Shown: positions 9,945 to 38,443 of the stretch, piece by piece
How the letters are laid out: every line of letters begins with the position of its first letter
Numbering within the stretch: the first letter of the stretch is position 1
Source: Clostridioides sp. ES-S-0010-02
Lineage (GTDB): Bacteria > Bacillota > Clostridia > Peptostreptococcales > Peptostreptococcaceae
Length of the DNA stretch: 64,000 nucleotides
Direction of reading: 5' to 3'
NCBI GenBank assembly: GCA_020641055.1
Contig: CP067345.1
Span: 760,001 to 824,000, forward strand
Notes under the pieces: generated by a model
Databases searched by the model: none
What the model was told of the DNA's origin: nothing
What the model saw: the letters and a program-made list of their open reading frames with translations, nothing else
Position numbers and translations under genes: made by a program

Positions 9945-10044
9945 TAAATTGGTTAAAATGGACAATACATACCACTTAATCAAAATACTGACAGTGGGGT
10001 CACTTAACCTACCAGTTGGGGCATATATATTGATACTAAATATG

Positions 10045-10087: not shown

Positions 10088-10154
10088 AGTATATTATATC
10101 AAGTTTTTAACATTAGAACTGAAAAAAATTTAGATTGAAGTAGGGAGGATTAAT

Positions 10155-22270: not shown

Positions 22271-22304
22271 GGATATATTAATATATCCCTATTTCATTAT
22301 CTCT
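22255..22304. terminator. 50-nt perfect palindrome, shared terminator of convergent genes
   Basis: 25-bp arms 22255-22279 and 22280-22304 are exact reverse complements with no spacer. Both stop codons (helicase 22268-22270, NUDIX 22291-22289) lie inside it. Because the DNA is symmetric, both proteins end in the same four residues, EIMK. On the plus strand CTCTTTT follows. It should form a strong hairpin in either transcript. Confidence 0.8.
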
Positions 22305-22678: not shown

Positions 22679-22875
22679 CGAAATCACCTCATAAAATAAA
22701 ATACCATAATTAATAAATTTAAACAAATTTAAAATTATAAAGTTAATTGTAAGTACAATAGTATATTTTTATTTCTTGAACTTTTATAAATAGAAAATAT
22801 CATTTTAGATAGAATAAAGACTGTATTTAGTAATTATAAATTTTTTAATAATATATTTATTAAAGGTAGGGACAT

Positions 22876-23032
22876 ATTAAAATAATTTAAATCTTAAACA
22901 ATGATGTAATATTAGTAAAAAGAGATAAAAATGAAATTATTGTATTTGTCAAAGCAATTAGTTTAAAAAAATAGTGGGACAAGTTATAAGTGAAAATGAG
23001 ATAGATAAAACCTATATACTTAGAAAATTCGT
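22876..23032 (+). pseudogene. Relic of a BglG/LicT-type antiterminator (CAT domain)
   Basis: After AGGTAGGG the frame reads ATT (in place of ATG), K-I-I, TAA, then ILNNDVILVKRDKNEIIVF, the typical start of an RNA-binding CAT domain. A frameshift near 22972 leads into VGQVISENEIDKTYILRKF, the rest of that domain. The start codon change, nonsense codon, frameshift and absence of PRD domains mean the gene is dead. This is the only recognisable content of the 22727-23120 gap. Confidence 0.65.
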
Positions 23033-23120
23033 TTAAAAGGTGTGAAAAGAATTAATTTATAAAAAATTCTTTGATATGTAATATTAAGATATTTTTATGA
23101 GGTTGTACTGTGTAGTTAAA

Positions 23121-23220
23121 TACGAAAATACAATTAAACATGGTAAAACATAATGAAACATAACTAAAAATACAGAAAAATATAAAAAAATATAGCTAAA
23201 TATAATAAAACATAATATAA
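23121..23220 (+). repeat. Ten degenerate 10-bp repeats with phased A-tracts
   Basis: Ten consecutive 10-bp blocks follow a TA-NNN-AAACA/AAAAA pattern, for example TAATGAAACA, TAACTAAAAA, TACAGAAAAA. Runs of A recur in register with the DNA helical turn, the hallmark of intrinsically curved DNA. The array ends 23 bp before the first gene of the metal cluster, so it may be an upstream bend or a multimeric protein-binding site. Confidence 0.6.
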
Positions 23221-23242
23221 TTACTTTGAAGGGGGTGACAAA

Positions 23243-23977
23243 ATGTGGGAGTTTTATAATAATTTAATAGATAAAATACCAGAAAACATAAGAGTAAAAG
23301 ATTTTATTATAGGCTCAGAGTTTGCTATGGTAATAACAGATTATGGAGCAGGTATTAGTCATTTATTATCTGATAAAAGATTTCCTTTTGAAAACGATAT
23401 AAAAATAAATATGTCTTTAAAAGATTTATGCAAGTCAATTAAATCTTGGAATTTTATAGAAGCTAGTTTAGGATTAGCAGCAATAAATTCTTATTATAAT
23501 CAGAATATTTGCAATAAAACATTAAGCCTAGAGAAAATTAATCATCATTTCATTTCCATGATTGATGATTCATCAAAAAAAATAGCAGTAGTAGAGGGAA
23601 ATCTTCAAAATAAAAATAAAATTAAATTTAGATATGATGTGGATTTTTTCAATAGAAAAATAGTAGAAGAGGATTACAACATATCAGCATATGGATATTT
23701 AGTAGAAAACTATGATAGTACATATTTAGGTGGAGACTTAATTATTAATAAACATTTAATAAAAATAGCAAATGATTCACTTAATAAAGAAAGCATAATT
23801 TGTGATATATCGACACCTATATCTTCAGATTTCAAAAAATTAGGTATAAAAAATATAGGTGGATTTGTTGTAGATGATATAGATAAATGTTTTAATTTAG
23901 TAAAAATAAGTGCACCTTATGAGGATATTGAAAAGACAGGTAACATAATGAAAATAGTAGAGACAAAAGGGGATTAA
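23243..23977 (+). CDS. Divergent DUF4213/DUF364 (heavy-metal chelation-type) protein
   Basis: 244-aa protein homologous to the gene at 28718. The N-terminal DUF4213 half is clear: it shares SWNFIEASLGLAAINSYYN with SWNITESGIGLAAINSYYN there. The C-terminal half keeps only the outline of DUF364, for example STPISSDFKKLGI and IGGFVVDD; it lacks the GHF and GD-PE motifs seen in the paralog. DUF364 proteins are proposed from structural work to bind heavy metal, but no reaction is proven. AAGGGGGTGA precedes the ATG. It opens an operon with a FecBCD-type importer. It may be a non-catalytic partner of the second copy; that is inference. Confidence 0.75.
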   Translation: MWEFYNNLIDKIPENIRVKDFIIGSEFAMVITDYGAGISHLLSDKRFPFENDIKINMSLKDLCKSIKSWNFIEASLGLAAINSYYNQNICNKTLSLEKINHHFISMIDDSSKKIAVVEGNLQNKNKIKFRYDVDFFNRKIVEEDYNISAYGYLVENYDSTYLGGDLIINKHLIKIANDSLNKESIICDISTPISSDFKKLGIKNIGGFVVDDIDKCFNLVKISAPYEDIEKTGNIMKIVETKGD

Positions 23978-23981
23978 ATAA

Positions 23982-24992
23982 GTGAATAAGAGTGCAAAAA
24001 GTAATAAGTTAATTATGTTTTGTTTAGTTATAATATTGATTACATTGATATTAGTATCATTAGCACTTGGAAAATATCCAGTAGAACCACATCAAGTATT
24101 TGGAATTTTAGTTTCGAAAATATGTAATATAGATAAGTTTTGGACAGATAGCATGGAAACTATATTTTTAAATGTTAGATTACCAAGAATAGTACTTGCA
24201 TGTTTAGTAGGTGGGGCATTGGCAGCTGCAGGAGCATCATATCAATATATTTTTTTAAATCCTATGGCATCACCAGATATACTAGGGGCATCATCAGGAG
24301 CAGCATTTGGAGCTGCTTTAGCATTATTTCTTTATAAAAGTGGTAGAGAGGTTACAGTTAGTGCATTCATCTTTAGTTTAATTACTGTAATTTTAGTCTA
24401 TTTTATAAGTGAAAGAACAAAGGGAAGTAAAGTGTTAGGCTTAATTTTATCTGGTATTATGGTAAGTTCATTATTTTCTTCAGGTACATCTTTTATAAAA
24501 CTTGTAGCAGACCCTAATGACCAGTTACCTGCAATTACATATTGGTTAATGGGAAGTTTATCAGGAGCTAAAATATCTGACATAAAATTTGCAATTATTC
24601 CTATGTTAATAGGTATAGTACCTCTAATACTTATTAGCTGGCAAATAAACATATTGACTGTAGGAGAAGATGAGGCAAGAACGATGGGGATAAATACAAA
24701 GCGTATAAGATTTATTACTATTATATGTGCTACACTTTTAACTTCTGCAAGTGTTGCTGTAAGTGGAATGATAGGTTGGGTTGGTCTTGTAATACCACAT
24801 TTATCTAGAAGATTAGTTGGAAATAATTTTGTTTATTTATTGCCAACATCAGCTATGTTTGGAGCATCGTTTTTGTTGTTAGTTGATAATGTATCTAGAA
24901 ATTTATGGACTAGTGAGATACCTATAGGTATATTAACATCGTTTATTGGTGTACCATTTTTCATATATCTGATTACGAAAAGAGGGGATTAA
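23982..24992 (+). CDS. FecCD/BtuC-type ABC permease
   Basis: 336-aa membrane permease for siderophore, haem or corrinoid-type ABC importers, with eight to ten membrane segments. Family motifs include RLPRIVLACLVGGALAAAGA (about 66-85), NPMASPDILGASSGAAFGA (about 92-110) and the cytoplasmic GWVGLVIPHLSRRLVG (about 266-281) that contacts the ATPase. The start is GTG, 9 nt after AAGGGG and 4 bp after the previous stop. It acts with the ATPase and lipoprotein encoded next. The cargo could be an iron chelate, a corrinoid or another metal complex. Confidence 0.9.
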   Translation: MNKSAKSNKLIMFCLVIILITLILVSLALGKYPVEPHQVFGILVSKICNIDKFWTDSMETIFLNVRLPRIVLACLVGGALAAAGASYQYIFLNPMASPDILGASSGAAFGAALALFLYKSGREVTVSAFIFSLITVILVYFISERTKGSKVLGLILSGIMVSSLFSSGTSFIKLVADPNDQLPAITYWLMGSLSGAKISDIKFAIIPMLIGIVPLILISWQINILTVGEDEARTMGINTKRIRFITIICATLLTSASVAVSGMIGWVGLVIPHLSRRLVGNNFVYLLPTSAMFGASFLLLVDNVSRNLWTSEIPIGILTSFIGVPFFIYLITKRGD

Positions 24993-24993
24993 T

Positions 24994-25773
24994 ATGATTT
25001 TAGAAGTTAAAGATCTCAGTTATTTTTATAAAAATCAAAATGTACTTAATCAAATATCCTTTAATGTTGAAGGTAGTCAGTTACTATGTATATTAGGACC
25101 TAATGGTGCAGGGAAAAGTACTATGTTTAAGTGTATACTTCAGTTATTAAAAGGATATAAAGGTGAAATATTATTGGATGGAAAAAACTTGAAGGATTAC
25201 AAAATTAAGAATCTAGCAAGAAAAATAGCTTATATCCCTCAGTCTCATAATCCTGTATTTAGTTATTCTGTTGTTGAAATGGTATTGATGGGAACAACAT
25301 CACAAATTTCACCTATGTCTAAACCTACTAAAAAACAAATGGAAATAGTTGAAGAATCTTTAGACAAAATAGGAATTTCTTATTTAAAAGATAGGAATTT
25401 TATAAATTTAAGTGGAGGAGAAAGACAATTAGTACTTATTGCAAGAGCTTTAGCTCAAAATGCAAAGATACTTATTATGGACGAGCCAACCTCTGATTTA
25501 GATTATGGTAATCAAATTAGAGTATTAAATACAGTAAAAGAATTAACAAGGGATGGATATATAATAATTCAGTCAACACATAATCCAGACCAAGCATTTT
25601 TGTATGCAGACAAGGTTTTAGCTTTATACAATCATGAAATATTAGCTTTTGGTGTGCCTAAGTACATAATTAATTCTGGTCTAATTAAAAAATTATATAA
25701 CATAGATGTAGAATTAAACAGCTTATATGATGATAAAATTAGAGTCTGCATACCAAAAAGTGTAACTATATAA
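24994..25773 (+). CDS. FecE/BtuD-type ABC ATPase
   Basis: 259-aa ATPase that powers the FecCD permease. Walker A is GPNGAGKST (about residues 35-43), the signature is LSGGERQ (about 137-143), and Walker B is LIMDEPTSDLD (about 157-167) followed by the switch His in TQSTHNPD-type context. The ATG follows AGAGGGG and starts 1 bp after the permease stop, a tight operon arrangement. Confidence 0.92.
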   Translation: MILEVKDLSYFYKNQNVLNQISFNVEGSQLLCILGPNGAGKSTMFKCILQLLKGYKGEILLDGKNLKDYKIKNLARKIAYIPQSHNPVFSYSVVEMVLMGTTSQISPMSKPTKKQMEIVEESLDKIGISYLKDRNFINLSGGERQLVLIARALAQNAKILIMDEPTSDLDYGNQIRVLNTVKELTRDGYIIIQSTHNPDQAFLYADKVLALYNHEILAFGVPKYIINSGLIKKLYNIDVELNSLYDDKIRVCIPKSVTI

Positions 25774-25792
25774 TTTACTTAAGGGGGATAAA

Positions 25793-26881
25793 ATGAAAAA
25801 GAAATTATTATCATTGTTATTGGTACTAACTTTAGTAATAACATCTTTAGTTGGATGTACATCGTCAAATGGTGATGCTAAAGAAAAAAAAGAGGATAAA
25901 AATGCATCTAAAACAATAATGTTTACTGATTCAGTAGGTAGAAAAGTTGAGATTCCAGCAAATATTGAAAAAATAGCACCTTCAGGAAGTTTAGCACAAA
26001 TCGTACTATTTTCAGTAGCACCAGATAAGCTAGTTGGACTATCAGGAGATTGGACAGAGGATTCAAAAGACTATGTGGATAAAAAGTATACTAGTCTTCC
26101 TGTTTTTGGTCAATTTTATGGTAAGGGAGATTTAAATATGGAAGCCCTTGCAGCAGCAGAACCACAAGTAATTATCGATATAGGTGAGAAGAAAGGTAGC
26201 ATGAAAGAAGATTTAGATTCTATACAAGAACAAACAGGTATACCAACTATATTTATAGAAGCTACAACTGCTAATATGTCAGAATGTTACACTAAGCTAG
26301 GAGAAATCTTAAATGTAGAAGATAATGCAAAAGTATTAGCTGATTACTGTAAAACTACTTATGATACAACTGTAGAAACGATGAAGAAAATAGGTGATAA
26401 GAATAAAGTAAACCTTGCTTATTGCGTAGGAGACACAGGAACAAATATAATCGCAGAAGGGTCTTTCCACTCTGAGATTATTAATATACTTGCAAATAAT
26501 GTTGCAAAGCTCAATGACCCATCAAGTAAAGGCAATGGAAATGAAGTATCGTTAGAACAATTATATTTATGGAATCCAGATGTAATAGTGTTTGCACCAC
26601 AGAGTATATATAGTAAAGTAGGAAGTCAAGCTGAATGGCAAAAAATAAGTGCTATATCTAGTGGTAAATACTATGAAGCACCAAGTACGCCATATAATTG
26701 GATGGGATTCCCTCCATCTGTAAATAGATATATGGGTATGATTTGGCTATCTGAAATACTTTATCCAGAGCATTTTAATTATGATTTAAAAGAAAAAACA
26801 AAAGAATTTTATAAGTTATTTTATCATGTTGATTTAAGTGATGAACAATATAGCAAATTAACTAAAAACGCTATTAAATAA
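25793..26881 (+). CDS. ABC substrate-binding lipoprotein, FecB/BtuF type
   Basis: 362-aa surface lipoprotein that delivers cargo to the FecCD-type permease. A signal peptide ends in the lipobox LVGC with lipidated Cys22, followed by a charged Lys/Asp-rich linker. The mature part is a periplasmic-binding class III fold starting with the typical TDSVGRKVEIPANIEKIAPS region (about 44-63). AAGGGGG precedes the ATG. The closing position in this four-gene set completes an importer, with the first DUF364 gene cotranscribed. The bound ligand cannot be predicted from sequence alone. Confidence 0.9.
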   Translation: MKKKLLSLLLVLTLVITSLVGCTSSNGDAKEKKEDKNASKTIMFTDSVGRKVEIPANIEKIAPSGSLAQIVLFSVAPDKLVGLSGDWTEDSKDYVDKKYTSLPVFGQFYGKGDLNMEALAAAEPQVIIDIGEKKGSMKEDLDSIQEQTGIPTIFIEATTANMSECYTKLGEILNVEDNAKVLADYCKTTYDTTVETMKKIGDKNKVNLAYCVGDTGTNIIAEGSFHSEIINILANNVAKLNDPSSKGNGNEVSLEQLYLWNPDVIVFAPQSIYSKVGSQAEWQKISAISSGKYYEAPSTPYNWMGFPPSVNRYMGMIWLSEILYPEHFNYDLKEKTKEFYKLFYHVDLSDEQYSKLTKNAIK

Positions 26882-26950
26882 TATATAGATATAAAGTTAC
26901 TAAATAATGTGTAGGCATAAAGTTATTAAATAATATATAGACATAAATTA
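26881..26950 (+). repeat. 26-bp tandem repeat, about 2.7 copies
   Basis: Imperfect units begin at 26881, 26907 and 26933, each reading ATATATAGATATAAAGTTAC-like sequence followed by TAAATA. The first unit starts on the last base of the lipoprotein stop codon. It lies immediately before a hairpin. Confidence 0.6.
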
Positions 26951-26982
26951 AAAGAAAGTAGGATTTTACCTACTTTCTTTCG
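26951..26982 (+). terminator. Hairpin between importer and GTPase genes
   Basis: Perfect 12-bp arms AAAGAAAGTAGG (26951-26962) and CCTACTTTCTTT (26969-26980) with a 6-nt loop. The T-tract is inside the arm and no long T-run follows, so it could be a partial terminator that lowers downstream expression, or an RNA-stability hairpin. Confidence 0.5.
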
Positions 26983-26999
26983 TAAAAAGGGGAATTGAT

Positions 27000-27695
27000 A
27001 TGAAACTAATTACAGTAGCAGGGCCACCATCATCCGGAAAAACATCTGTTATTCTTCATCTAATTAAAGCTATGGAGGCAGAAGAAAATAAGGTTGGAGT
27101 AGTAAAGTTTGACTGTCTTACATCTTTTGACCAGATTAGATATGAAGAGAATAATATACCTGTTCAAATTGGACTATCTGGTAAAATTTGTCCAGACCAT
27201 TTTTTTATAAGTAATATTGAAGATGCACTTTATTGGTCTAAAAAATTAAACTTAGATATTTTAATTACTGAAAGTGCAGGGCTTTGTAATCGTTGCTCAC
27301 CCTATATAAAAACTATACCAGCAGTTTGTGTAATAGATAATTTATCAGGGATAAATACACCTAGAAAAATAGGACCAATGCTAAAATATGCTGATATTGT
27401 TGTAATTACAAAAGGAGACATAGTATCACAAGCAGAAAGGGAGGTATTTTCCTTTAATGTACGTCAAGTAAACTCAAAAGCTAAGATAATATTTATAAAT
27501 GGAATCACAGGACAAGGAGTATTTTTACTTAAGAAATATTTAAGTGATATAAAAGAAATAACCACGCTTAGGGAAAAACAATTACGTTTTACAACACCAG
27601 CATCAGTGTGTTCTTACTGTACTGGAGAGACTAGAATTGGAGAATCTTATCAAATGGGAATGATAAAGAAAATGGAGTTTGACTATGAAATATGA
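27000..27695 (+). CDS. HypB/UreG/CobW-like P-loop GTPase
   Basis: 231-aa SIMIBI-class GTPase of the kind that assists metal insertion into enzymes. Visible motifs are the P-loop GPPSSGKTSV (8-17), the ITESAGLC segment (about 93-100) in place of the DxxG switch, and the guanine-specificity motif ITKGD (about 138-142). A Cys pair in CSYCTGET near the C-terminus and a CNRC motif near residue 100 could hold metal. AAGGGG precedes the ATG. It overlaps the next gene by 11 bp. Role in nickel or cobalt handling is inferred from family and neighbours. Confidence 0.75.
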   Translation: MKLITVAGPPSSGKTSVILHLIKAMEAEENKVGVVKFDCLTSFDQIRYEENNIPVQIGLSGKICPDHFFISNIEDALYWSKKLNLDILITESAGLCNRCSPYIKTIPAVCVIDNLSGINTPRKIGPMLKYADIVVITKGDIVSQAEREVFSFNVRQVNSKAKIIFINGITGQGVFLLKKYLSDIKEITTLREKQLRFTTPASVCSYCTGETRIGESYQMGMIKKMEFDYEI

Positions 27696-28740
27696 TAATT
27701 ATGAAAATTTACTAAACATGTCTATAAAAGAGATAAAAGAAAACTACTCTATGGCCTTTGATTTTTTCTTAAATTACAATCTAAGTAATGTAGATGATTC
27801 AATTACTTTTAATAATCTAATAGAATCTTTAGATGAGGAATTTTATATAACTTTTGGGATAGAAAAAGAAGAATTATACATTAAATTGGTGGAGTTTTTA
27901 AAAGAATTTGGCCAAGATGAAAAGAGTTTAAATATAGAAAGCATTACTATTAATGGTGGGTACAATAAGCTAAAAGAAAAAGAAGCTATCTCATTGAAAA
28001 TAAAGGCTGGAGAAATTATAAGTATTGTTGGACCTACAGGTTCAGGAAAAAGTAGACTGTTAGAGGATATTGAATGTTTAGCCCAGAGAGACACTCCTAC
28101 TAACAGACAAATATTAATAAATGAAAGTATTCCAAGTGATGAAACTCGTTTTGTTATGGATGGAAAGCTAGTAGCTCAACTTTCACAAAATATGAATTTT
28201 GTAATGGATTTAACAGTAGAAGAATTTTTACAAATGCACTCTAAAAGTCGTTTTTGTAAAAATCAAGATGACATAGTAAAAAAATGCTTTTATTGTGCTA
28301 ATAAACTAGCTGGAGAAAAATTTGAATTAACCACAAAGATAACCCAATTATCAGGAGGTCAATCAAGAGCTCTTATGATATCGGATACTGCATATATGAG
28401 TTCTTCACCAATAGTTTTAATTGATGAAATTGAAAATGCAGGTATAGATAGAAAGGAAGCTCTAAGACTATTATCTAAAAAGGAAAAAATAATTTTGATT
28501 TCAACACATGACCCTATATTAGCTTTAAACGCTAATAAAAGAATAGTTATTAAAAATGGTGGAATTTCAAAGGTAATATCTACAACAGATGAAGAAATAG
28601 AAAGTATTAAATACATAGAAAGCTTAGATAATATTTTACTAGATATTAGGCACAAGGTTAGAAAAGGTGAAGTCTTAAATAGAAAAGAAATAGAGAGTAT
28701 TGTACAGGAGGAGGTAAATGACTTTGTGGGAACTTTATGA
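27685..28740 (+). CDS. ABC-type ATPase with N-terminal helical domain
   Basis: 351-aa protein. The first about 75 residues are an acidic helical domain with no clear match (weakly DUF1858/ScdA-N-like). The rest is an ABC ATPase: Walker A GPTGSGKS (about 112-119), signature LSGGQSR (about 227-233), Walker B IVLIDEIENAG (about 248-258) and the switch His in ISTHD. No permease is encoded beside it, so it may be a soluble chaperone-type ATPase acting with the GTPase. The ATG at 27685 has GGAG 7 nt upstream and is preferred over TTG at 27679. It overlaps both neighbours, indicating translational coupling. Confidence 0.75.
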   Translation: MKYDNYENLLNMSIKEIKENYSMAFDFFLNYNLSNVDDSITFNNLIESLDEEFYITFGIEKEELYIKLVEFLKEFGQDEKSLNIESITINGGYNKLKEKEAISLKIKAGEIISIVGPTGSGKSRLLEDIECLAQRDTPTNRQILINESIPSDETRFVMDGKLVAQLSQNMNFVMDLTVEEFLQMHSKSRFCKNQDDIVKKCFYCANKLAGEKFELTTKITQLSGGQSRALMISDTAYMSSSPIVLIDEIENAGIDRKEALRLLSKKEKIILISTHDPILALNANKRIVIKNGGISKVISTTDEEIESIKYIESLDNILLDIRHKVRKGEVLNRKEIESIVQEEVNDFVGTL

Positions 28741-29491
28741 TGATTTAATAGAAGGAATTCCTAAGGAGATAATAGTTGAAGATATAGCTGTTGGGCAACA
28801 TAATATTTTAGTAAGAAGTAGTGTAGGTAGTGGTATAGGTTTTGTATATAGTGAAGATGGGCGTCCTCCAGAGTTTGTAAAATCTTTTAAAGGAAAATCT
28901 TTATATGAAATAGCTGGATGTATTAAGTCTTGGAATATCACAGAATCAGGAATTGGCTTGGCTGCAATAAATTCTTATTATAATTCTGTAAAAGTTTCAA
29001 AAGAAAATAATATAAAGTTAAATGAAAACAATTTTATAGAAGATAGAATTAATGACCCTTTTATTTCATACCAGAATATGATAAGGGGAAAAAAGGTAGC
29101 GGTTATAGGTCATTTTCACTATTTAGAACAACTATTTGCACCTGTTTGTGATTTATCCATAATAGAAAGTGAAGATATATATGGTGATTATCCAGAGACT
29201 TCAGCACCATATATCTTACCTGAACAGGACTTTGTAGTTATATCTTGTTACACATTAAGTACAAAAACTTTTCCTTGGTATTTAGAATTAAGCAAAAATG
29301 CTTATGTGGTATTGGTAGGTCCAGCAACTCCAATGGCACCTATATTATTTAAGTATGGAGTAAATGATTTATCAGGATTTGTAATTAAAGAACATGATAA
29401 AGTAATGAGCATAATAAGTGGAAATGAGAGAAACAGTATGTTTTACAGTACAGGTCAGAAAGTAAATTTAAAAGACGGTGGGGAAATTTAA
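28718..29491 (+). CDS. DUF4213/DUF364 heavy-metal chelation-type protein
   Basis: 257-aa cytosolic protein with a canonical domain pair: DUF4213 (enolase-N-like, about residues 10-90, ending in GLAAINSYYN) and DUF364 (Rossmann-like, about 118-245) with GKKVAVIGHFHYLEQ, GDYPETSAPYILPEQD and VGPATPMAPILFKYGV. The family has a proposed metal-chelating active site; no reaction is known. GAGGAGG precedes the ATG, which overlaps the ATPase gene by 23 bp. It is the better-conserved of the two copies in this operon (the other is at 23243). Confidence 0.85.
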   Translation: MTLWELYDDLIEGIPKEIIVEDIAVGQHNILVRSSVGSGIGFVYSEDGRPPEFVKSFKGKSLYEIAGCIKSWNITESGIGLAAINSYYNSVKVSKENNIKLNENNFIEDRINDPFISYQNMIRGKKVAVIGHFHYLEQLFAPVCDLSIIESEDIYGDYPETSAPYILPEQDFVVISCYTLSTKTFPWYLELSKNAYVVLVGPATPMAPILFKYGVNDLSGFVIKEHDKVMSIISGNERNSMFYSTGQKVNLKDGGEI

Positions 29492-29493
29492 AT

Positions 29494-30192
29494 ATGAGAA
29501 TGAATTGGAATGATACTACAATAAAATCTTTTGTTGATGCAAGTGAATATACTGGTTTTCACAAGATATTAGCTAAAGAAGTAATTCCGTACATCAAAGA
29601 TAGCCAAACTTTTTGTGATGTAGGTTGTGGATTAGGTTTAATAGATATGTATTTAAGCAAAGAACTGAAAGATATAACTTGTATTGATATAAACCAAAAT
29701 GCTATAAATTATTTAGAAAAATCAATAAAAGACAATAATATAAGCAATATTAGGTGTATGGTAAAAGATTTTAAAGATATAAATACAAAATTTGATACTA
29801 TACTAATTTCTTTTTTTTCATATGAGAATATAGAATTTTTTACTGGGCATTGTGATAGATTAATTGCAATTGTTAATGATAAGTCCAAAACTCATATTCC
29901 AGTATCTAAGAAAAGAATGGATGTGGTGGAAAGACATAGTTCAAAAAATTTAAAAGTATTATTAGATGAAAAGAAACTTAGATATGAATTAATACCATTA
30001 AGTCTTGAATTTGGACAGACATTTACTTGTGAAGATGACATAGTTAGGTATGCTAAGTCTTATGATGAAGGCGGAGAGTATGAAACTATATACAATCATA
30101 TTATGAAAAATATAGTTAAGGGAGATAAAGTAGCTTATTACCTTCCATATGAAAAAAATATATCTGTTTTTATAATAGACTTTAATAGATAG
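29494..30192 (+). CDS. SAM-dependent methyltransferase-like protein
   Basis: 232-aa class I methyltransferase-fold protein, with the S-adenosylmethionine loop FCDVGCGLGLIDMYL (about residues 41-55) and the acidic CIDINQNAINYL end of strand 2. No substrate-specific motif is recognised. The gene starts 2 bp after the DUF364 stop and closes the operon. With the second methyltransferase gene at 35770 it brackets the riboswitch-controlled transporter, so it may modify a chelator or corrinoid-like ligand; that is inference. Confidence 0.75.
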   Translation: MRMNWNDTTIKSFVDASEYTGFHKILAKEVIPYIKDSQTFCDVGCGLGLIDMYLSKELKDITCIDINQNAINYLEKSIKDNNISNIRCMVKDFKDINTKFDTILISFFSYENIEFFTGHCDRLIAIVNDKSKTHIPVSKKRMDVVERHSSKNLKVLLDEKKLRYELIPLSLEFGQTFTCEDDIVRYAKSYDEGGEYETIYNHIMKNIVKGDKVAYYLPYEKNISVFIIDFNR

Positions 30193-30240
30193 ATAATTGT
30201 AAATTTTAATTTTGCATATAGTGCTATATTTTGATTTAAG

Positions 30241-30269
30241 TTGACAATTTATATAAGATTGCATACAAT
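30241..30269 (+). promoter_or_regulatory. Sigma-70 promoter ahead of cobalamin riboswitch
   Basis: TTGACA (30241-30246), 17-bp spacer, TACAAT (30264-30269); transcription would start near 30276, just before the riboswitch. Confidence 0.75.
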
Positions 30270-30287
30270 TAAACTAAGAATTGAATA

Positions 30288-30430
30288 AACGTATTTAAAG
30301 AGTAGGGAAGTTGGTGAAAATCCAACACGAACCCATCACTGTAAGCATGGATAAATTCTGCATAGCCAACAGATGTTATTTAGAAAGGCTGAGAAAATGA
30401 AATGTAAGTCAGATACCTACATTAAATATT
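30288..30430 (+). ncRNA. Cobalamin riboswitch
   Basis: The conserved core is visible: GGGAAGTTGGTGAAAATCC (30305-30323), then the CACGAACCCATCACTGTAA segment (30326-30344), and the B12-box-like GTAAGTCAGATACCTAC (30404-30420). The closing stem pairs TATTTAA-N3-GTAGG (from 30291) with CCTAC-N2-TTAAATA (to about 30429). A terminator at 30516-30545 serves as expression platform. It predicts that the transporter operon downstream is switched off when cobalamin is abundant. Confidence 0.9.
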
Positions 30431-30515
30431 AGTAAATAAATTTAGGGGGGAGCAACTAGATTTATTGTCTTGTATATGGAATTTAGAATTTAAAGTATAC
30501 ATATTAAAATGGGAT

Positions 30516-30545
30516 GTTATAGCATTATTTGCTATAACTTTTTTT
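30516..30545 (+). terminator. Riboswitch-associated terminator
   Basis: GTTATAGC (30516-30523) and GCTATAAC (30531-30538) around ATTATTT, followed by seven T. It sits 35 bp before the start of the binding-protein gene, the expected place for riboswitch-controlled attenuation. Confidence 0.88.
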
Positions 30546-30579
30546 ATGCTCATATTTCTAAATAAGGGGGAAATGTATT

Positions 30580-32160
30580 ATGAGGAAGATTTCAAAAGGG
30601 AAGCTGAGTAGTATAATTTTAGCAATTATGCTGATGTTATCATTGATAACAGGGTGTAGTAAACCAGAGGAAAATAATGATGTTAGTAAGATGAATAATG
30701 AAAAGGAAGTAGTTTTAGCAGCAGCTAGAGATTTGGCACCAGGTGAACAAGATGCTTATTACACAAGTTCTATACTCTATGTTTGGGAACCGTTAATAGG
30801 GTTGGGTGATGATGGAAAACCAAAGGCAGAACTTGCAGAAAAATGGTCAAATTCAGGTGATTATAAAGAATGGACATTTACAATAAAGAAGGGTGTAAAA
30901 TTCCATGATGGTGTAGATTTGAATGCAGATTCAGTAGTAAAAAATTTTGAACGTTATATGAATATGAAAACGAAATCTTCACCTTTTTATTCGTTTGATA
31001 TAGAAAAGACATATCCTAATTTACAAAGTGTGGATAAAGTTTCTGACTATGAAGTTAAACTTACTTTCAGTAAACCAATATCAACTTTAATATACAACAT
31101 GGCTAGATTTGGAAGTGCTATGTATAGTCCAGAGTGTTTTGATGTAAAAACGGGAGACTTTACTAAGTATGCACAAGGAACTGGTCCATTTAAGATAAAA
31201 GAACGAGAAAAAGAACAATTTGTTTTGTTAGAGAGAAATCAAGACTATTATGGAGATAAAAGTAAAGTTAAAAATGTAAGAGTAAATGTAATTAAAGATG
31301 CACAAACTCGTTACACAGCACTTAAATCAGAGGAAATTATGGGTGTTATGGATTTAGGGGCTATTACTCCAGAGTTAGCTAGTGAGCTAATAAAGGATGA
31401 AAACTTTGAGATTAAAACATCTCCATCAACAATAACTCAATTTGTATCTACAAACGGTACTAGGGCACCATTTAATAATGTTAAGATAAAAGAAGCACTA
31501 AGCTTGTTGGTGGATAGAGAAACTATAGTAAATAAATTTTATGGAGGATATGGAACTCCGACTATGAATATATTGAACCAAGGTTCACCTTTTGCTAAGG
31601 AAATTAAACCTGTTTATGATGCAGAAAAAGCAAAAAAAATTATAAAGAATGAGTTAAAAGGGGAAACAAAAGAGTTAGAGTTTATAATACCATCTTATGG
31701 TGTAGACCGTTATCCATACAAAACTGTAGCAGAGTATATACAATCTGTATTAAGTGAAGTTGGATTAAACTCTAAAATAACTATACTTGATGGTGCTGCT
31801 TTTAAGGAAGCACAAAAAACAGGAAATTATGACATAGCACTTCACACTCAAGGGCTTCCAAATGCAGAACCATTTTCTATATTTGATAGTTATATGAGAA
31901 GCACAGGGTCAAGTAATATAGCTTATTCATTGGGCTATAAAAATGAAAGAGCAGATGAATTAATAGGTCAATTAGAAAAAACAATGGATTTAGATAAAAG
32001 AAGTAAAATATATGATGAGCTTCAAGATATATCATCAGAACACCCATCAGCTATACCATTATTTGAAGATGTTAACTTAATTGCCTATAATAAAAAAATA
32101 ACTGGATACAAACCTACATTATATGGGACTACATTAGCAAATATGGAGTGGAGTAAGTAG
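30580..32160 (+). CDS. NikA/OppA-family substrate-binding lipoprotein
   Basis: 526-aa extracytoplasmic solute-binding lipoprotein (SBP family 5). The signal peptide ends in the lipobox LITGC with Cys26. Mature features include YVWEPLIGLGDDGKPKAELA and WTFTIKKGVKFHDG near residues 70-110, which match nickel/dipeptide-type binders; the SBP_bac_5 domain runs to about residue 450. It lies directly behind a cobalamin riboswitch and its terminator, which argues for cobalt, a corrinoid precursor or a cobalt/nickel chelate rather than peptide as ligand. AAGGGGG precedes the ATG. Confidence 0.88.
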   Translation: MRKISKGKLSSIILAIMLMLSLITGCSKPEENNDVSKMNNEKEVVLAAARDLAPGEQDAYYTSSILYVWEPLIGLGDDGKPKAELAEKWSNSGDYKEWTFTIKKGVKFHDGVDLNADSVVKNFERYMNMKTKSSPFYSFDIEKTYPNLQSVDKVSDYEVKLTFSKPISTLIYNMARFGSAMYSPECFDVKTGDFTKYAQGTGPFKIKEREKEQFVLLERNQDYYGDKSKVKNVRVNVIKDAQTRYTALKSEEIMGVMDLGAITPELASELIKDENFEIKTSPSTITQFVSTNGTRAPFNNVKIKEALSLLVDRETIVNKFYGGYGTPTMNILNQGSPFAKEIKPVYDAEKAKKIIKNELKGETKELEFIIPSYGVDRYPYKTVAEYIQSVLSEVGLNSKITILDGAAFKEAQKTGNYDIALHTQGLPNAEPFSIFDSYMRSTGSSNIAYSLGYKNERADELIGQLEKTMDLDKRSKIYDELQDISSEHPSAIPLFEDVNLIAYNKKITGYKPTLYGTTLANMEWSK

Positions 32161-33107
32161 TGAAAACACCATTTAAATATTTAATTAGAAGGATATTGAT
32201 GACTATCCCTATTTTGATAGGAATAACTTTTCTAGGATTTATATTAGGGGTTATAGCACCTGGTGACCCAGCAGTTGAATATTTAAGCATGGATGGTATT
32301 TCTGCTCCTACAGATGAAGAAATAGAAAGAGTTAGAGAAGAGTTAGGGTTAAATGATAATATTATAGTTCAGTATATTAATTGGACTAAAAAAGCTATGA
32401 CTGGAGATTTAGGACTTTCCTATATCAAAAAGACATCTATCACAGAAGAGATATTAAGAAGGTTACCAATAACCTTCTCTTTATCTTTAATGGCTATGTT
32501 TTTTGTTATAGTGTTATCTATACCATTAGCTATAATCATGGCTTTAAAAAAGGATTCAGCGATAGATAAGATTGGCACTTTTGTATCTTTACTTATGATA
32601 TCTATTCCAGGGTTTTGGTTAGCTATTATTATGTTAAGTATATTTTGTGAGAATCTTAGATGGCTACCTACGAGTGGGTATGGTACGATTAAACATTTAA
32701 TAATGCCTGGATTTGTTTTAGCAGCTGGGACTATAGGAACTGTAGCAAGGTTAAATAGAGCAACTTTAATAGAAAGTATAGGACAAAACTATATAACAGT
32801 GGCAAAAGCTAAGGGTCTGTCAAATAAAATAGTTATTTTTAAGTATGCTTTTTTAAATTCATTAATGCCCATTGTAACAGTTCTGGGAAACTATTTTGGT
32901 GCTATTTTAGGAGGCTCCACAGTGGTTGAGGTTATTTTTAGTATTCCAGGTATGGGAAGTTATGTAATACAAGGAATAATGAGTAGAGATTATCCAGTGG
33001 TACAAGGATATGTGCTATTTACAGGAATTATATTTATAGTGTTTAATTTAATTGTAGACATATGTTACCTATTTCTTAATCCTAAAATGAGGGTGGGAGG
33101 TAAATGA
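32160..33107 (+). CDS. NikB/DppB-type ABC permease
   Basis: 315-aa membrane permease with about six membrane segments. The N-terminus YLIRRILMTIPILIGITFLG is typical of this subunit; the EAA-like loop reads NYITVAKAKGLSNKIVIFKYA (split across residues 208-228). The GTG start shares one base with the preceding TAG stop (TAGTG), so translation is coupled. It pairs with the next permease. Confidence 0.92.
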   Translation: MKTPFKYLIRRILMTIPILIGITFLGFILGVIAPGDPAVEYLSMDGISAPTDEEIERVREELGLNDNIIVQYINWTKKAMTGDLGLSYIKKTSITEEILRRLPITFSLSLMAMFFVIVLSIPLAIIMALKKDSAIDKIGTFVSLLMISIPGFWLAIIMLSIFCENLRWLPTSGYGTIKHLIMPGFVLAAGTIGTVARLNRATLIESIGQNYITVAKAKGLSNKIVIFKYAFLNSLMPIVTVLGNYFGAILGGSTVVEVIFSIPGMGSYVIQGIMSRDYPVVQGYVLFTGIIFIVFNLIVDICYLFLNPKMRVGGK

Positions 33108-33108
33108 G

Positions 33109-33945
33109 ATGAATAAATTTAAAGAAATGTTATTTATACATAAACTAGCTTTTTTAGTGCTAATAATTATGATACTTGTTGCAATATTTGCACCAGAGTT
33201 AGCTCCATATGACCCTAATAAAGTACAAATGGATGATAGATTAATGGGAATTTCTAGAGAACATATACTTGGTACAGATACTCTAGGCAGAGATATTCTA
33301 AGTAGGATATTATATGGAGCCAGAGTATCAATATCTTTAGCTTTTTTAGCAACCTTATTAACAATGCTATTTGGTAGTTTTGTGGGTATAATAGCAGGAT
33401 ATTGTGGTGGGATAGTAGATACGATAATACAGTCAATTGTAAATATATTTCAAGGTCTTCCAAGTCTTAGCTTTATGATTGCTCTTGCTGGAGTTCTTGG
33501 GCCAGGTATAAAAAGTTTATTAATTGCAATAGTATTCACTTCTTGGGCTGGTTTTTCAAGAATAGTTAGAGGAGAGGTATTAAAGGTAAAAGAAGAAAAA
33601 TATGTTGAAGGTGCAAGAGCACTAGGGGCTAGTCATATTTATATAATTTTGCACTATATAATTCCAAATATATTTGCTCCTTTTATAGTACTATTTGCAA
33701 TAAGGGTAGGAAAAAGTGTACTTTCTATGGCATCGTTAAGTTTTTTAGGTCTAGGAATACAACCCCCACAAGCAGATTGGGGTGTTATGATAAATGATGC
33801 TAAGACTCATTTTAGAAGCTATCCAAATCTATTATTAGCACCTGGGTTTAGTATATTATTATTGTGTTGCAGTATAAATTTAATTGGAGATGCACTAAGG
33901 GATATGTTTGATGAAAAAAGCAACACTTTAAGCCAATATCTTTAG
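33109..33945 (+). CDS. NikC/DppC-type ABC permease
   Basis: 278-aa second permease subunit with about six membrane segments. Family motifs are HILGTDTLGRDILSRILYGA (about residues 48-67) and the EAA loop YVEGARALGASHIYIILHYI (about 165-184). GGGAGG lies inside the end of the previous gene, and the start is 1 bp after its stop. It forms the channel with the DppB-type subunit. Confidence 0.92.
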   Translation: MNKFKEMLFIHKLAFLVLIIMILVAIFAPELAPYDPNKVQMDDRLMGISREHILGTDTLGRDILSRILYGARVSISLAFLATLLTMLFGSFVGIIAGYCGGIVDTIIQSIVNIFQGLPSLSFMIALAGVLGPGIKSLLIAIVFTSWAGFSRIVRGEVLKVKEEKYVEGARALGASHIYIILHYIIPNIFAPFIVLFAIRVGKSVLSMASLSFLGLGIQPPQADWGVMINDAKTHFRSYPNLLLAPGFSILLLCCSINLIGDALRDMFDEKSNTLSQYL

Positions 33946-33959
33946 AAGGAATAAAAACT

Positions 33960-34919
33960 ATGAATAGAGATATAAGTATAAAAGATTTAAAAATTCATTT
34001 TAATACTAAGGAAGGAAAAGTAAGAGCTGTAGATGGAATATCTAGAACCTTTCAAAGTGGTAAAATTACAGGAATTATTGGAGAAACTGGAAGTGGAAAA
34101 TCGGTACTAGGACTAGGGATTTTGAACCTTGTATCTAATAACTCAACTGTTTCAGGCAGTGTCTTATATGAAGAAAAAGATTTGCTAAAAATTAAAGAAA
34201 ATGAAATTAGAGAAATCAGAGGGAAAAAAATAGCGTTAATACCCCAAAATCCATCAAGTTCTTTTAATCCAATATTGAAAATAGGAAGTCATATGAATGA
34301 ACTTTTTTATTATCATGGAAAAGAAAAAAAGAATTCTTGTAAGAGTAAAAGTTTGGAGATATTAAAAAATTTTTTTTTCTCAAATAGTGAGTTGGTTTAT
34401 AATTCGTATGGATTTCAGTTAAGTGGAGGTATGAGTCAAAGAGCATTAGCAGCTATAGGGACAGCACTAAAACCTAACTGGGTAATTGCAGATGAACCAA
34501 CTAAAGGGTTGGATGCAATAATAAGAAAGCAAGTATATGAAGTATTTTATGATTTAAGAAGTAATATGGGCGTTAGCATGATACTTATAACTCATGATTT
34601 AATGCTAGCTAAAAAGCTTTGTGATGAAGTTGTAGTTATGTATGCAGGTAAAATCATAGAAGAGGGTACAAAAAATAGTATCTTTAATAATCCACTACAT
34701 CCTTATACGAGAGGTTTAATTGATTCACAGCCAAATAAAAAATTAATACCCATTGAAGGGATAGCGCCAAGTCTAACAAACTTACCAAAAGGATGTAGAT
34801 TTTCTCCGAGATGCAAGGTTGCAAAAAAAACATGTATTGATTATGAACCAAGACTATTTGATGTTAATGGTTCAAAAGTGAGGTGTTTTCTTTATGATAA
34901 GAGTTTGCAACCTTTATAA
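33960..34919 (+). CDS. NikD/OppD-type ABC ATPase
   Basis: 319-aa ATPase with Walker A GETGSGKS (about residues 41-48), signature LSGGMSQR (about 156-163) and Walker B WVIADEPTKGLD (about 176-187). The C-terminal oligopeptide/dipeptide domain ends in the Cys-containing RFSPRCKVAKKTC motif common in this subfamily. GAAGGA precedes the ATG. The gene overlaps the following ATPase gene by 26 bp. Confidence 0.9.
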   Translation: MNRDISIKDLKIHFNTKEGKVRAVDGISRTFQSGKITGIIGETGSGKSVLGLGILNLVSNNSTVSGSVLYEEKDLLKIKENEIREIRGKKIALIPQNPSSSFNPILKIGSHMNELFYYHGKEKKNSCKSKSLEILKNFFFSNSELVYNSYGFQLSGGMSQRALAAIGTALKPNWVIADEPTKGLDAIIRKQVYEVFYDLRSNMGVSMILITHDLMLAKKLCDEVVVMYAGKIIEEGTKNSIFNNPLHPYTRGLIDSQPNKKLIPIEGIAPSLTNLPKGCRFSPRCKVAKKTCIDYEPRLFDVNGSKVRCFLYDKSLQPL

Positions 34920-35658
34920 GGAGTTTAAAAGCGGAATAATCAATAAAAAGATAGTTAAGGCGGTAGATGATGTATCTTTTGAAATCAAAGAGGGAAAAAC
35001 CTTAGGTCTTGTAGGAGAAAGTGGATGCGGAAAATCAACTTTATCAAGGCTTATTTTAAGACTTATTAAATGTGACAGAGGTAAAATTTATTTTAATGGT
35101 AGAGATATCAGTAATTATGATTTTTCTCAAATGAGGGATTTAAGAAAAGAGATACAGATAATATTTCAACATCCAGATTCTGCCCTAAGCCCTAAAAAAA
35201 CTATATATGGGAGCCTTGTGGAACCATTAAAAATTCATAAACTCTATGAAAAGAATAAAGCAAGAGAATACATAATGGAATATTTAAGTTTTGTTGGGCT
35301 TAGTGAGGAAATTTTAAATAGATACCCACATCAAGTAAGTGGAGGACAAATACAAAGAGTTGCTTTAGCTAGAGTGCTTTTATTAAATCCTAAATTTATG
35401 ATATTAGATGAACCTACATCAATGCTAGATGTATCTGTGCAAGCTCAAGTTATACAGGTTTTGAAGAAAGCTCAAAAACAGTTTAATATAACCTATTTAT
35501 TTATATCTCATGATATAGACTTAGTAAAAGAAGTTAGTGATGAGGTTGCAGTCATGTTAAATGGCAAGATAGTTGAAATTATAGATGCTAAGGAATTGTA
35601 TAAAAGTGCAAAGCATGCTTATACCAAAGAGCTTGTTGAGAATTTCACTAATTTTTAA
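34894..35658 (+). CDS. NikE/OppF-type ABC ATPase
   Basis: 254-aa second ATPase with Walker A GESGCGKST (about residues 45-53), signature VSGGQIQR (about 149-156) and Walker B FMILDEPTSMLD (about 169-180). It completes a five-subunit importer: binding lipoprotein, two permeases and two ATPases. The start overlaps the preceding gene, with GAGGTG upstream. Confidence 0.9.
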   Translation: MIRVCNLYKEFKSGIINKKIVKAVDDVSFEIKEGKTLGLVGESGCGKSTLSRLILRLIKCDRGKIYFNGRDISNYDFSQMRDLRKEIQIIFQHPDSALSPKKTIYGSLVEPLKIHKLYEKNKAREYIMEYLSFVGLSEEILNRYPHQVSGGQIQRVALARVLLLNPKFMILDEPTSMLDVSVQAQVIQVLKKAQKQFNITYLFISHDIDLVKEVSDEVAVMLNGKIVEIIDAKELYKSAKHAYTKELVENFTNF

Positions 35659-35769
35659 AATATAGTAATCAATTGTTTAATTAATCAATCATTACATTAG
35701 TAAGAGTAGTTTTTTGAGTATAGAAAATTACAAATCTCGCCCTAATATTTTTAGAAAGGAAGAGTAATT

Positions 35770-36591
35770 ATGTACTATAAAGATATAGATTTTGAGAAAA
35801 AATGGCATGAGTATATTGAAAGTAAAGAAGGATATGCAAGAGAAAGAGCTTTTGATGATGAAGCGGAAAGAAAGTTTTTTAAAAAATTATCTCATAAATA
35901 TGATGATAAGCCAACGCTTTATGATTATTCAAAAGAAGTATTTAATTTTGTAGATAAGTTAATAGATGAAGGAAAAAATCTTATAGAAATTGGTGCAGGT
36001 ACCGGAAAATTTACTATTCCACTTTCTAAGAAATGTAAAGGTATAATTGCTAATGATTTTTCAATAGATATGCTTAATGTGCTTGAAGGAAAGATTAGGG
36101 AACATAATATAACTAATATAGATACAATACAAGGAAAATGGGAAGAGATTAATGTTGGGCATAGTGATTATATTTTATCTGTGAATTCTCTTTATCGAAT
36201 TTGGGATATTAAAGATGCTTTGAGTAAGATGGCCAAGCTAGCTAAAGAAAAAGTGATTATAGTGAGAACTATTCAAAAACCATTATTTAATGATTTGTAT
36301 ATGGATTTAGGTGATAAAGATAGAACTTGTCCAGATTATATATACATTCCAAATATACTACATTCTTTAAATATATGTGCAGATATAAAGTTTATTGATG
36401 TAGAAAATGAAATTGAATTCGATAGTGTAGAGGATATACTTTTTAAAATGGAAACAGAATTAAATAAAAAGATTAACTTTAGCGATATGTTGGATAAGTA
36501 TATAGATAAGATAATAGAAAAAAGAGAAAACAAATATATTTTTAAACATAAAACTAAAGTTGTAATTATATACTGGAATAGTATAAGCTAG
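35770..36591 (+). CDS. SAM-dependent methyltransferase
   Basis: 273-aa class I methyltransferase. The SAM-binding loop is LIEIGAGTGKFTIPL (about residues 76-90) and the acidic strand is IIANDFSIDMLNVL. A second half, with DRTCPDYIYIPNILHSL, may hold substrate. AAAGGAAGAG precedes the ATG. It lies 111 bp after the ATPase gene with no clear terminator, so it may be the last gene of the cobalamin-riboswitch transcript. Substrate unknown. It is not a close copy of the methyltransferase at 29494. Confidence 0.75.
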   Translation: MYYKDIDFEKKWHEYIESKEGYARERAFDDEAERKFFKKLSHKYDDKPTLYDYSKEVFNFVDKLIDEGKNLIEIGAGTGKFTIPLSKKCKGIIANDFSIDMLNVLEGKIREHNITNIDTIQGKWEEINVGHSDYILSVNSLYRIWDIKDALSKMAKLAKEKVIIVRTIQKPLFNDLYMDLGDKDRTCPDYIYIPNILHSLNICADIKFIDVENEIEFDSVEDILFKMETELNKKINFSDMLDKYIDKIIEKRENKYIFKHKTKVVIIYWNSIS

Positions 36592-36633
36592 ATTTGTTAA
36601 TATTATGGAAGCATATAAACTCTTCTGAAAATA

Positions 36634-36662
36634 TTTACAATCTCGACATATTATGCTACAAT
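36634..36662 (+). promoter_or_regulatory. Promoter ahead of lysine riboswitch
   Basis: TTTACA (36634-36639), 17-bp spacer, TACAAT (36657-36662) preceded by TGC, an extended -10. Transcription would start near 36669. Confidence 0.7.
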
Positions 36663-36708
36663 TATTTAGAATAAATAAAATTTAATAAGAATTACCTCAT
36701 CTAATAAA

Positions 36709-36890
36709 AAGATTGAGGTAGAGGTCGCATTTACTAAGATTAATATTGAAGAGGTCGGAAGCCAATGAAGCAATATAAAAGGAGTAAGTGCCGAAGTGCT
36801 AGTGTCCAAATCTAGTGCTGGGGCTGTATTTAATAAGTACAGTACTGTCATCAAAATTATCCCGAATTTTGATGGAGAGCTATCTTAACT
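36709..36890 (+). ncRNA. Lysine riboswitch (L box)
   Basis: All conserved blocks of the L box are seen in order: GAGGTAGAGGTCGCATTTA (36715-36733), GGAAGCCAATGAAG (36757-36770), GGAGTAAGTGCCGAAGTG (36781-36798), GCTGGGGCTGT (36817-36827) and ACAGTACTGTCAT (36839-36851). The closing stem pairs TTGAGGTAG (36713-36721) with CTATCTTAA (36880-36888). A terminator follows at 36933. The following transporter operon should be off when lysine is abundant. Confidence 0.92.
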
Positions 36891-36932
36891 AAGATAAAGG
36901 GAAGATGTAGGTATATTGTATTTAGCGCATTC

Positions 36933-36963
36933 AGCTCAACATGTATCCATGTTGAGCTTTTTT
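36933..36963 (+). terminator. Riboswitch-associated terminator
   Basis: AGCTCAACATG (36933-36943) and CATGTTGAGCT (36948-36958) around TATC, followed by TTTTT: the expression platform of the lysine riboswitch. Confidence 0.9.
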
Positions 36964-37038
36964 ACATCTATATAAAATAGGATAGAAAAGGGAAGCAATA
37001 ATAAAATATTTTAATTTTAAAAGTGGGGGAGATTAAAA

Positions 37039-38430: not shown

Positions 38431-38443
38431 TAGGAGGTATATT

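Follow-up and report, generated by a model that had tools for sequence, protein, structure and literature searches.

Positions 23243–30192 of the stretch of Clostridioides sp. ES-S-0010-02 DNA analyzed here (the window: 64,000 nucleotides, G000 C1:760001–824000, from a 4.26-Mb genome assembled as a single contig) hold an operon, here called operon I, in which a conserved module is present in full: a GTPase, a soluble ATP-binding cassette (ABC) ATPase, and a swappable third protein. An initial annotation of the window had merged operon I with the adjoining unit II, in which an importer and a methyltransferase lie behind a cobalamin riboswitch, into one system for nickel or cobalt. The two are separable units, and it is the conserved GTPase–ATPase module, not the two-operon arrangement of the window, that merits attention. 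Tentatively, we favor the explanation that operon I is a self-contained unit for uptake of a metal chelate and its nucleoside triphosphate (NTP)-driven delivery, independent of the unit II importer.

A Conserved GTPase–ATPase Pair

The GTPase of operon I belongs to the CobW/HypB/UreG clan, and the best full-length solved relatives of its profile (alignment A1) are HypB and UreG. The HypB/UreG-like label of the initial annotation holds at the level of the clan (Table 1) and fails at the level of the family, where the scores lie below the NCBIfam equivalog cut-offs for both HypB (61.2 versus 121.2 bits) and UreG (37.3 versus 204.2 bits). Among 123 copies drawn from all three of the arrangements described below, CPDH and GLCxxC motifs are each present in 123 and CxxCxG in 120; the 16 rows of alignment A1 share the invariant residues C64-P-D-H67, C96, C99, C110, C204, and C207. 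A soluble ATPase lies no more than two open reading frames (ORFs) from the GTPase in 110 of the 123 copies, and in two clostridial loci, L051 and L052, the two proteins are fused as a single ORF. In operon I the soluble ATPase is additional to the ATPase of the importer.

The pair is widespread, with acetogens, methanogens, and green sulfur bacteria among its carriers. When the genome collection was scanned for the GTPase, 43 loci emerged, distributed over Acetobacterium, Alkalibaculum, Desulfosporosinus, Pectinatus, Methanoculleus, Methanocorpusculum, Methanomicrobium, Chlorobiaceae, and other taxa. By profile search, carriers of the GTPase number 24 among 393 genomes of the window's class (one of these, G186, has 11% contamination), 97 among 149 of the class of Methanoculleus (G455), and 28 among 120 of the class of Pectinatus (G456). 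No GTPase ORF was called in nine of the 129 focal loci (L046, L049, L067, L094, L097, L101, L106, L107, and L119), and these are absent from the cluster counts below. The gene neighborhoods support conservation of importer, GTPase, orphan ATPase, DUF364 protein, and methyltransferase together across bacteria and archaea.

Three Partners for the Pair

The pair occurs in three arrangements. In type I, found in the window and in Acetobacterium, Desulfosporosinus, and Methanomicrobium, the GTPase and ATPase are accompanied by DUF364 and often by a FecCD importer and a methyltransferase. In type II a cytosolic SBP_bac_6 protein (PF13343, sometimes with DUF1858) stands where type I has DUF364, and in type III the partner is an iron–sulfur (Fe–S) protein (PF04060). 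Type III genes of methanogens lie alongside COG1900, cysteate synthase, and ComDE genes, identified by eye. When the loci are grouped into 70 clusters at 85% GTPase identity, a coenzyme M-operon gene accompanies all 13 of 13 type III clusters, a label that was partly used to define the type. Locus L144, from the window's class, has a type III-like Fe–S protein without COG1900, cysteate synthase, or ComDE genes. The 15 type I clusters, with their loci pooled, include 10 with FecCD, 10 with FecB, nine with a methyltransferase, and three with molybdenum or tungsten (Mo/W) genes.

A maximum-likelihood tree was built from 68 GTPases, one per cluster, the fused proteins of two of the 70 clusters (L051 and L052) being left out by length. 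Type III is set apart by a 100/100 branch, and 14 of the 15 type I rows, with three unassigned rows, form one clade (100/99). Within the type I clade, the rows of Methanomicrobium and Methanocorpusculum fall together with those of Desulfosporosinus and Acetobacterium, which suggests that a unit of the operon I type has passed between domains. The rows of L144 and L076 are long, and their placement is unsure. Locus L137 carries DUF364 yet sits in a type II clade, and it reads as an adaptor replacement. It is possible, though we would not press the point, that the GTPase–ATPase pair has three substrate adaptors that can replace one another, DUF364 among them.

The genome of the window also has a second pair (L019, C1:3697000–3716900, with the copy at C1:3706687). 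It is accompanied by a short protein with a weak SBP_bac_6 match (19.7 bits; cut-off 24.6) and lies divergently to genes for a Crp-type regulator and an SsuABC-like importer, with a sigma-54-type regulator alongside.

Gene Content of Operon I

Every gene that the initial annotation had assigned to operon I was found in its place, and the ORF positions and Pfam scores confirm the set (Table 1). Both DUF4213/DUF364 proteins have both domains above the Pfam gathering scores (23 for PF04016 and 23.5 for PF13938). The second copy matches the solved Dhaf4260 (3l5o) over nearly its full length, with 249 bits. The first, 27% identical to the second, has an intact N-terminal half and a divergent C-terminal half, in which PF04016 is barely above its cut-off. 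Matches to PF01032, PF00005, and PF01497 within 23982–26881 identify the importer as FecCD/BtuCD-type (type II), with no NCBIfam match above cut-off. The best solved relative of the lipoprotein is 4pag (7e-43); HI_1472 (MolA, 3psa; 1e-12) is fourth, after 4pag, 4ovk, and 4hn9. The methyltransferase MT1 is 36% identical over 231 amino acids to the equivalently placed gene in Acetobacterium (L026). Directly upstream of the operon lies an array of AATAAAACAT-like units, and a similar stretch precedes the same operon in the sister genome G008; it is possible that this putative element is an operator array.

Table 1. Features of operon I and unit II (positions in the window)
Feature	Position	Strand	Evidence
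Tandem array, about 8.4 copies of a 10-bp AATAAAACAT-like unit	23132–23217	.	Tandem Repeats Finder, 72% matches, score 54
DUF4213/DUF364 protein, first copy	23243–23977	+	PF13938 59.2 bits; PF04016 25.5 bits (cut-off 23)
FecCD-family importer permease	23982–24992	+	PF01032 312 bits; best NCBIfam match BtuC 245.7 (cut-off 461)
Importer ATPase	24994–25773	+	PF00005 117.6 bits; best NCBIfam match heme ABC ATPase 200 bits (cut-off 261)
FecB-type substrate-binding lipoprotein	25793–26881	+	PF01497 58 bits; solved relatives 4pag, 4ovk, 4hn9, 3psa
CobW/HypB/UreG-clan GTPase	27000–27695	+	PF02492 52.5 bits; CPDH, GLCxxC, CxxCxG motifs
Soluble ABC-type ATPase with N-terminal extension, GTPase partner	27679–28740	+	PF00005 59.5 bits; alignment A2
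DUF4213/DUF364 protein, second, canonical copy	28718–29491	+	PF04016 96.2, PF13938 56.3 bits
Class I S-adenosylmethionine-dependent methyltransferase MT1	29494–30192	+	PF05175/PF13649
Cobalamin riboswitch of unit II	30281–30418	+	RF00174 49.9 bits (gathering score 31.5)
Unit II binding lipoprotein, SBP (substrate-binding protein) family 5	30580–32160	+	PF00496 274 bits; NikA 181.9 (cut-off 393); best solved relative YliB, 1uqw
Unit II permeases (two)	32160–33945	+	ORFs 32160–33107 and 33109–33945; kind from the sequence and the initial annotation, without family-library scores
Unit II ATPases (two)	33960–35658	+	ORFs 33960–34919 and 34894–35658; kind from the sequence and the initial annotation, without family-library scores
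Unit II methyltransferase MT2	35770–36591	+	Methyltransf_25 39 bits

Neighbors of the Pair

As controls for the surroundings of the pair, 40 regions of 18 kb were taken arbitrarily from 21 genomes in which focal loci also occur. The main counts take one representative locus for each of the 57 clusters outside type III and include all ORFs; the control regions represent a narrower set of genera than the focal loci do, and some of the focal loci are short contigs. Reference genes for molybdenum, cobamides, hybrid-cluster protein, and regulators were in part confirmed by profile models, several below cut-off, and otherwise named by eye.

FecCD permeases are near the pair in 19 of 57 clusters and in none of the 40 controls (p = 9e-6), FecB proteins in 22 of 57 versus 0 of 40 (p = 1e-6), and methyltransferases in 15 of 57 versus 1 of 40 (p = 0.001). 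In contrast, unit II-like permeases are near 2 of 57 clusters, the window's own kind included, and 2 of 40 controls (p = 0.81). The importer and methyltransferase are therefore genuine companions of the pair, and the unit II importer is not. Crp-type regulators (9/57 versus 0/40, p = 0.006) and TonB receptors (6/57 versus 0/40, p = 0.04) are also enriched; the receptors are unspecific, with best matches to siderophore or B12 and to heme or B12 receptors, all below cut-offs. Counts for an SsuA/C-like importer (5/57 versus 0/40, p = 0.065), hybrid-cluster protein (4/57 versus 0/40, p = 0.11), nif genes (3/57 versus 1/40, p = 0.45), and cobamide markers (CobT, BzaA, and SUMT only; 3/57 versus 1/40, p = 0.45) are less distinct.

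Separability of Operon I and Unit II

Among 71 genomes of the family, the operon I GTPase occurs only in G000 and G008 (100% and 98% identity); any GTPase of its protein family, at E ≤ 1e-15, is found in 14 of the 71. In G000 and G008 the two operons are adjacent, on the same strand, and in the same order, as expected of the single co-conserved system first proposed. Remote relatives of MT2 in type I loci of Methanomicrobium (22–24% identity) also speak for that proposal. The distribution of unit II does not. Its binding protein and MT2 are both present in the same four of 71 genomes (G000, G007, G008, and G009), with the permeases and ATPases retained in G007, G008, and G009, and two of the four, G007 and G009, lack the operon I GTPase.

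The congener G007 provides a clean empty site. Window positions 20001–22766 and 30211–38500 align there to stretches 24 bp apart, so that the 7.4-kb block holding operon I (22767–30210) is absent as one unit, whereas the riboswitch, importer, and methyltransferase of unit II are kept. In G009 the operon I site is taken by three other genes, homologous to window positions 8291–10559. This genome is the only other carrier of the GTPase family in the genus, and its 47% copy resembles the second copy of G000 and G008. Thus, when co-conservation of the two operons was checked, as the initial annotation had advised, it was not found: unit II stands alone in G007 and G009. The permease counts above and the confinement of the riboswitch to unit II, the sole one in the window with none before operon I, point the same way. 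The single two-operon system is rejected on the empty site in G007, and we consider it very improbable.

Unit II itself was largely recognized correctly. The cobalamin riboswitch placed ahead of its importer and methyltransferase is well above the gathering score, with a promoter match (TTGACA-17-TACAAT, 30241–30269) upstream and, by consensus scan, a terminator-like hairpin and T run (30516–30538) on its 3′ side. From the riboswitch score and the terminator behind it, unit II is predicted to be cobalamin-riboswitch-controlled. The designation "Nik/Opp-type" holds only broadly. Like NikABCDE, Cnt, and Gsi, unit II combines an SBP family 5 protein with two permeases and two ATPases; unlike them, it has a cobalamin riboswitch, a companion methyltransferase, and a binding protein that scores below the NikA, CntA, and GsiB cut-offs and resembles YliB most closely among solved proteins. 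Beyond unit II, a strong lysine riboswitch (36711–36890; RF00168, 119.5 bits) precedes a transporter at 37039 that is AbgT-like by eye.

Proposed Mechanism

What the sequences show is the gene content and its conservation, the invariant motifs, an adaptor replacement, two fusions of GTPase with ATPase, and the separability of the operons; the chemical steps of the path given here, and its metal, are inferred. The lipoprotein and the FecCD/ATPase importer would bring in a metal complex, whose ligand may be modified by MT1. The two cytosolic DUF364 proteins would bind or open the imported complex and present it to the pair. The GTPase would then take the metal at its CPDH/CxxC/CxxC residues. Together with the soluble ABC ATPase it would act as a loading pair, driven by NTP, from which a cofactor or an enzyme receives the metal. 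NTP-driven release and hand-over of a metal would be in keeping with a GTPase that cycles with nucleotide, bears a metal site, and has a soluble ABC ATPase as its neighbor.

In a wider and rather unlikely version, the CPDH GTPase and soluble ABC ATPase would serve anaerobes generally as an NTP-driven machine for loading metals or cofactors, into which DUF364, a cytosolic binding protein, or an Fe–S protein would plug as the substrate adaptor; in diazotrophic clostridia the machine would provide nitrogenase or Mo/W enzymes with metal, and in methanogens it would aid coenzyme M synthesis. Two observations weigh against a role in metal uptake and delivery. Four of the 15 type I clusters have no importer or methyltransferase nearby, and type III copies adjoin coenzyme M genes, for which no metal-import model accounts.

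An alternative casts the pair as a device, based on Fe–S or on low-potential electrons, for activating oxygen-sensitive enzymes, with the importer link secondary. The cysteines of the two CxxC motifs that accompany CPDH, all four of them invariant, would suit such a device, as would the PF04060 Fe–S motif of the type III partner, found mostly with coenzyme M genes; the counts of hybrid-cluster protein and Crp-type regulators, and nitrogenase-like genes in locus L076, lean in the same direction. However, FecCD importer genes are the strongest association of the pair, and type I clusters seldom carry Crp (1 of 15) or hybrid-cluster protein (1 of 15) genes. We regard the electron device as doubtful.

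Several loci deserve description in this context. In L076 (10868–16253), genes for nitrogenase-like H and component-1 proteins come after the pair on its own strand, one of these proteins being BchB/NifE-like and below cut-offs, together with FecB/FecCD-like genes. A hybrid-cluster protein gene, named by similarity and by eye, is near the pair in L022, L028, L072, L075, and L123. Between the ATPase and the hybrid-cluster protein of L072 lies a small cysteine-rich protein (10709–10948) with a weak match to HypA (E = 0.001, below cut-off); L075 has a similar small protein.

Identity of the Metal

The initial annotation had proposed that the cluster imports and handles a metal or chelate, naming cobalt and nickel. 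For operon I the import and handling role is supported, whereas cobalt is weakened, with no cobalamin riboswitch before the operon or before the FecCD/GTPase genes of 23 related loci scanned, at least four of them archaeal. The two cobalamin riboswitches found in those loci (L026 and L068) face bza-like genes.

Molybdenum or tungsten, which the initial annotation did not name, is the assignment that we would make for operon I, though with caution. Genes for a TupA-like protein, MoeA, MoaA, MoaC, and FdhD surround L022; a ModE-like gene directly follows L050, ModD is by L057, and a MoeA-like gene is by L044. An HTH-PBP protein is by L051, L077, and L137, MoeA is in L114, and L051 and L052 have nif genes. 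Five of these loci that bear FecCD (L044, L050, L057, L077, and L137) have the ModE-like, ModD, MoeA-like, or HTH-PBP gene within or alongside them. DUF364 is also found near nifH, in the nif region of a Methylococcus plasmid. Passages of the DUF364 family paper link DUF364 to molybdate, tungstate, vanadium, and iron genes (PMC2954201), and MolA, a solved relative of the operon I lipoprotein, binds molybdate and tungstate (PMC4031551).

A number of points weigh against this assignment. Mo/W genes are near the pair in 11 of 57 clusters versus 4 of 40 controls (p = 0.17), and two or more Mo gene types in 5 of 57 versus 0 of 40 (p = 0.065). Higher linkage in pooled loci (15/57 versus 4/40, p = 0.04; at least two types 8/57 versus 0/40, p = 0.01) was downgraded in favor of these one-locus-per-cluster counts. 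TupA, ModE, and the MoeA of L044 score below NCBIfam cut-offs, and some Mo matches (ModB in L138 and L142, ModD in L140) resemble other transporters or NadC. Three solved proteins are closer to the operon I lipoprotein than MolA is, and in L138 a HypF-like gene comes after the pair. Of the GTPase-bearing Clostridia, 9 of 24 lack a MoaA above cut-off, and CbiC co-occurs more strongly than MoaA. 

In the genus of the window, TupA is absent from all eight genomes tested, and no recognized importer lies within the 20 kb inspected at the molybdenum-cofactor gene region of the window's own genome.

Co-occurrence across whole genomes does not choose among metals. MoaA above cut-off is found in 15 of 24 GTPase-bearing versus 10 of 56 other Clostridia, CbiC in 22 of 24 versus 15 of 56, and prismane proteins in 24 of 24 versus 28 of 56. 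Since all three are enriched, lifestyle confounds the comparison, and it was rejected as decisive evidence for the metal.

In L051 and L052 the fused GTPase–ATPase lies upstream of nifH-like genes, with modA/modB nearby. It is possible that the fused pair supplies molybdenum where NifQ is absent.

Salvage of a corrinoid, another tetrapyrrole, or cobalt provides a second explanation of operon I: a BtuCD-like importer would deliver a macrocycle, which DUF364 would bind and the methyltransferase alter, while the GTPase handled cobalt. The best NCBIfam match of the permease is BtuC (245.7 bits), and the CbiC counts fit. Acetobacterium has cobT, bza-like genes (bza by eye), and, oriented divergently to the cluster, a cobalamin riboswitch; mtrH lies upstream in Methanoculleus; and in L057 (Chlorobiaceae) a tetrapyrrole methylase (2371–3195; 154 versus the SUMT cut-off of 185) is upstream of the TonB/FecCD/GTPase cluster. 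Parts of the family paper liken the DUF364 cleft to B12, heme, and F430 sites (PMC2954201). However, all NCBIfam matches of the importer are below cut-offs, the riboswitch is missing before operon I and its relatives as described, cobamide markers are scarcely more frequent near the pair than in controls, and G131 has the pair without CbiC. A BtuCDF system under a cobalamin riboswitch was rejected, with BtuC at 245.7 versus 461 bits and the riboswitch before unit II only. We judge the salvage route unlikely.

Nickel delivery, with the GTPase as a HypB/UreG equivalent serving carbon monoxide dehydrogenase (CODH) or hydrogenase, draws on GTPase clan membership and on one locus, L138 (of the Pectinatus class), where a HypF-like gene (5183–7477, by eye) follows the ATPase by 12 bp on the same strand. 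The CPDH motif resembles the CPH nickel site of UreG, which would favor nickel, and in L033 F420-hydrogenase-like genes (by eye) precede the GTPase by about 5 kb. Part of a 2025 paper calls a methanogen relative a Ni2+ binding GTPase (PMC12068725). Against nickel stand the HypB and UreG scores and the single HypF-like gene among 129 focal loci (one BLAST query). Of the 24 Clostridia carriers, only G131 and G194 have a match to the prismane model (CODH and hybrid-cluster protein) within 10 kb, both hybrid-cluster-like by eye, in a search that used no dedicated urease or hydrogenase models. Molybdenum or tungsten has more neighborhood support than nickel and CODH, even though its overall linkage is not significant (p = 0.17). 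Nickel delivery is quite unlikely as an account of operon I. For the metal alone, cobalt or a corrinoid and iron are both improbable choices, nickel is more so, and any other metal is the least probable.

Relation to Known Systems and Significance

No description of a GTPase–ATPase–DUF364 unit was found in the open-access literature searched. The operon I GTPase shares its clan with HypB and UreG and, with UreG, a Cys-Pro-x-His element; it is unlike them in falling below both cut-offs, in combining CPDH with two CxxC motifs, and in having a soluble ABC ATPase as a near-constant neighbor. Operon I may also be compared with MolABC of Haemophilus influenzae, likewise a type II importer; MolA matches the operon I lipoprotein (1e-12), but three other solved proteins outscore it. 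MolABC is not known to have a linked GTPase pair. The second DUF364 copy is a clear member of the family of Dhaf4260 (PF04016, 3l5o), for which the passages of the family paper drawn on here give metal transport as the context and do not name the GTPase and soluble ATPase as partners (PMC2954201). On Azospirillum lipoferum plasmid AZO_p4 (L188, 8473–9699), a DUF364 match lies inside a protein annotated DUF2478, a possible natural fusion.

In methanogens, ATPase, GTPase, and COG2000 Fe–S genes are often colocalized with coenzyme M biosynthesis and have an unknown role, according to part of the study of Chadwick et al. 2025 (PMC12068725); we take these genes to be the type III form of the pair. 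They share the GTPase family and the ATPase with operon I, but they form a separate clade (100/100), have an Fe–S protein in place of DUF364, and show no importer in the operon.

For a GTPase family present in 24 of 393, 28 of 120, and 97 of 149 genomes of three classes, no function was found in the literature searched. Acetobacterium and Methanosarcina are genetically tractable laboratory hosts. Joining the methanogen type III form to the DUF364 metal operons would bring three unexplained gene sets under one testable idea.

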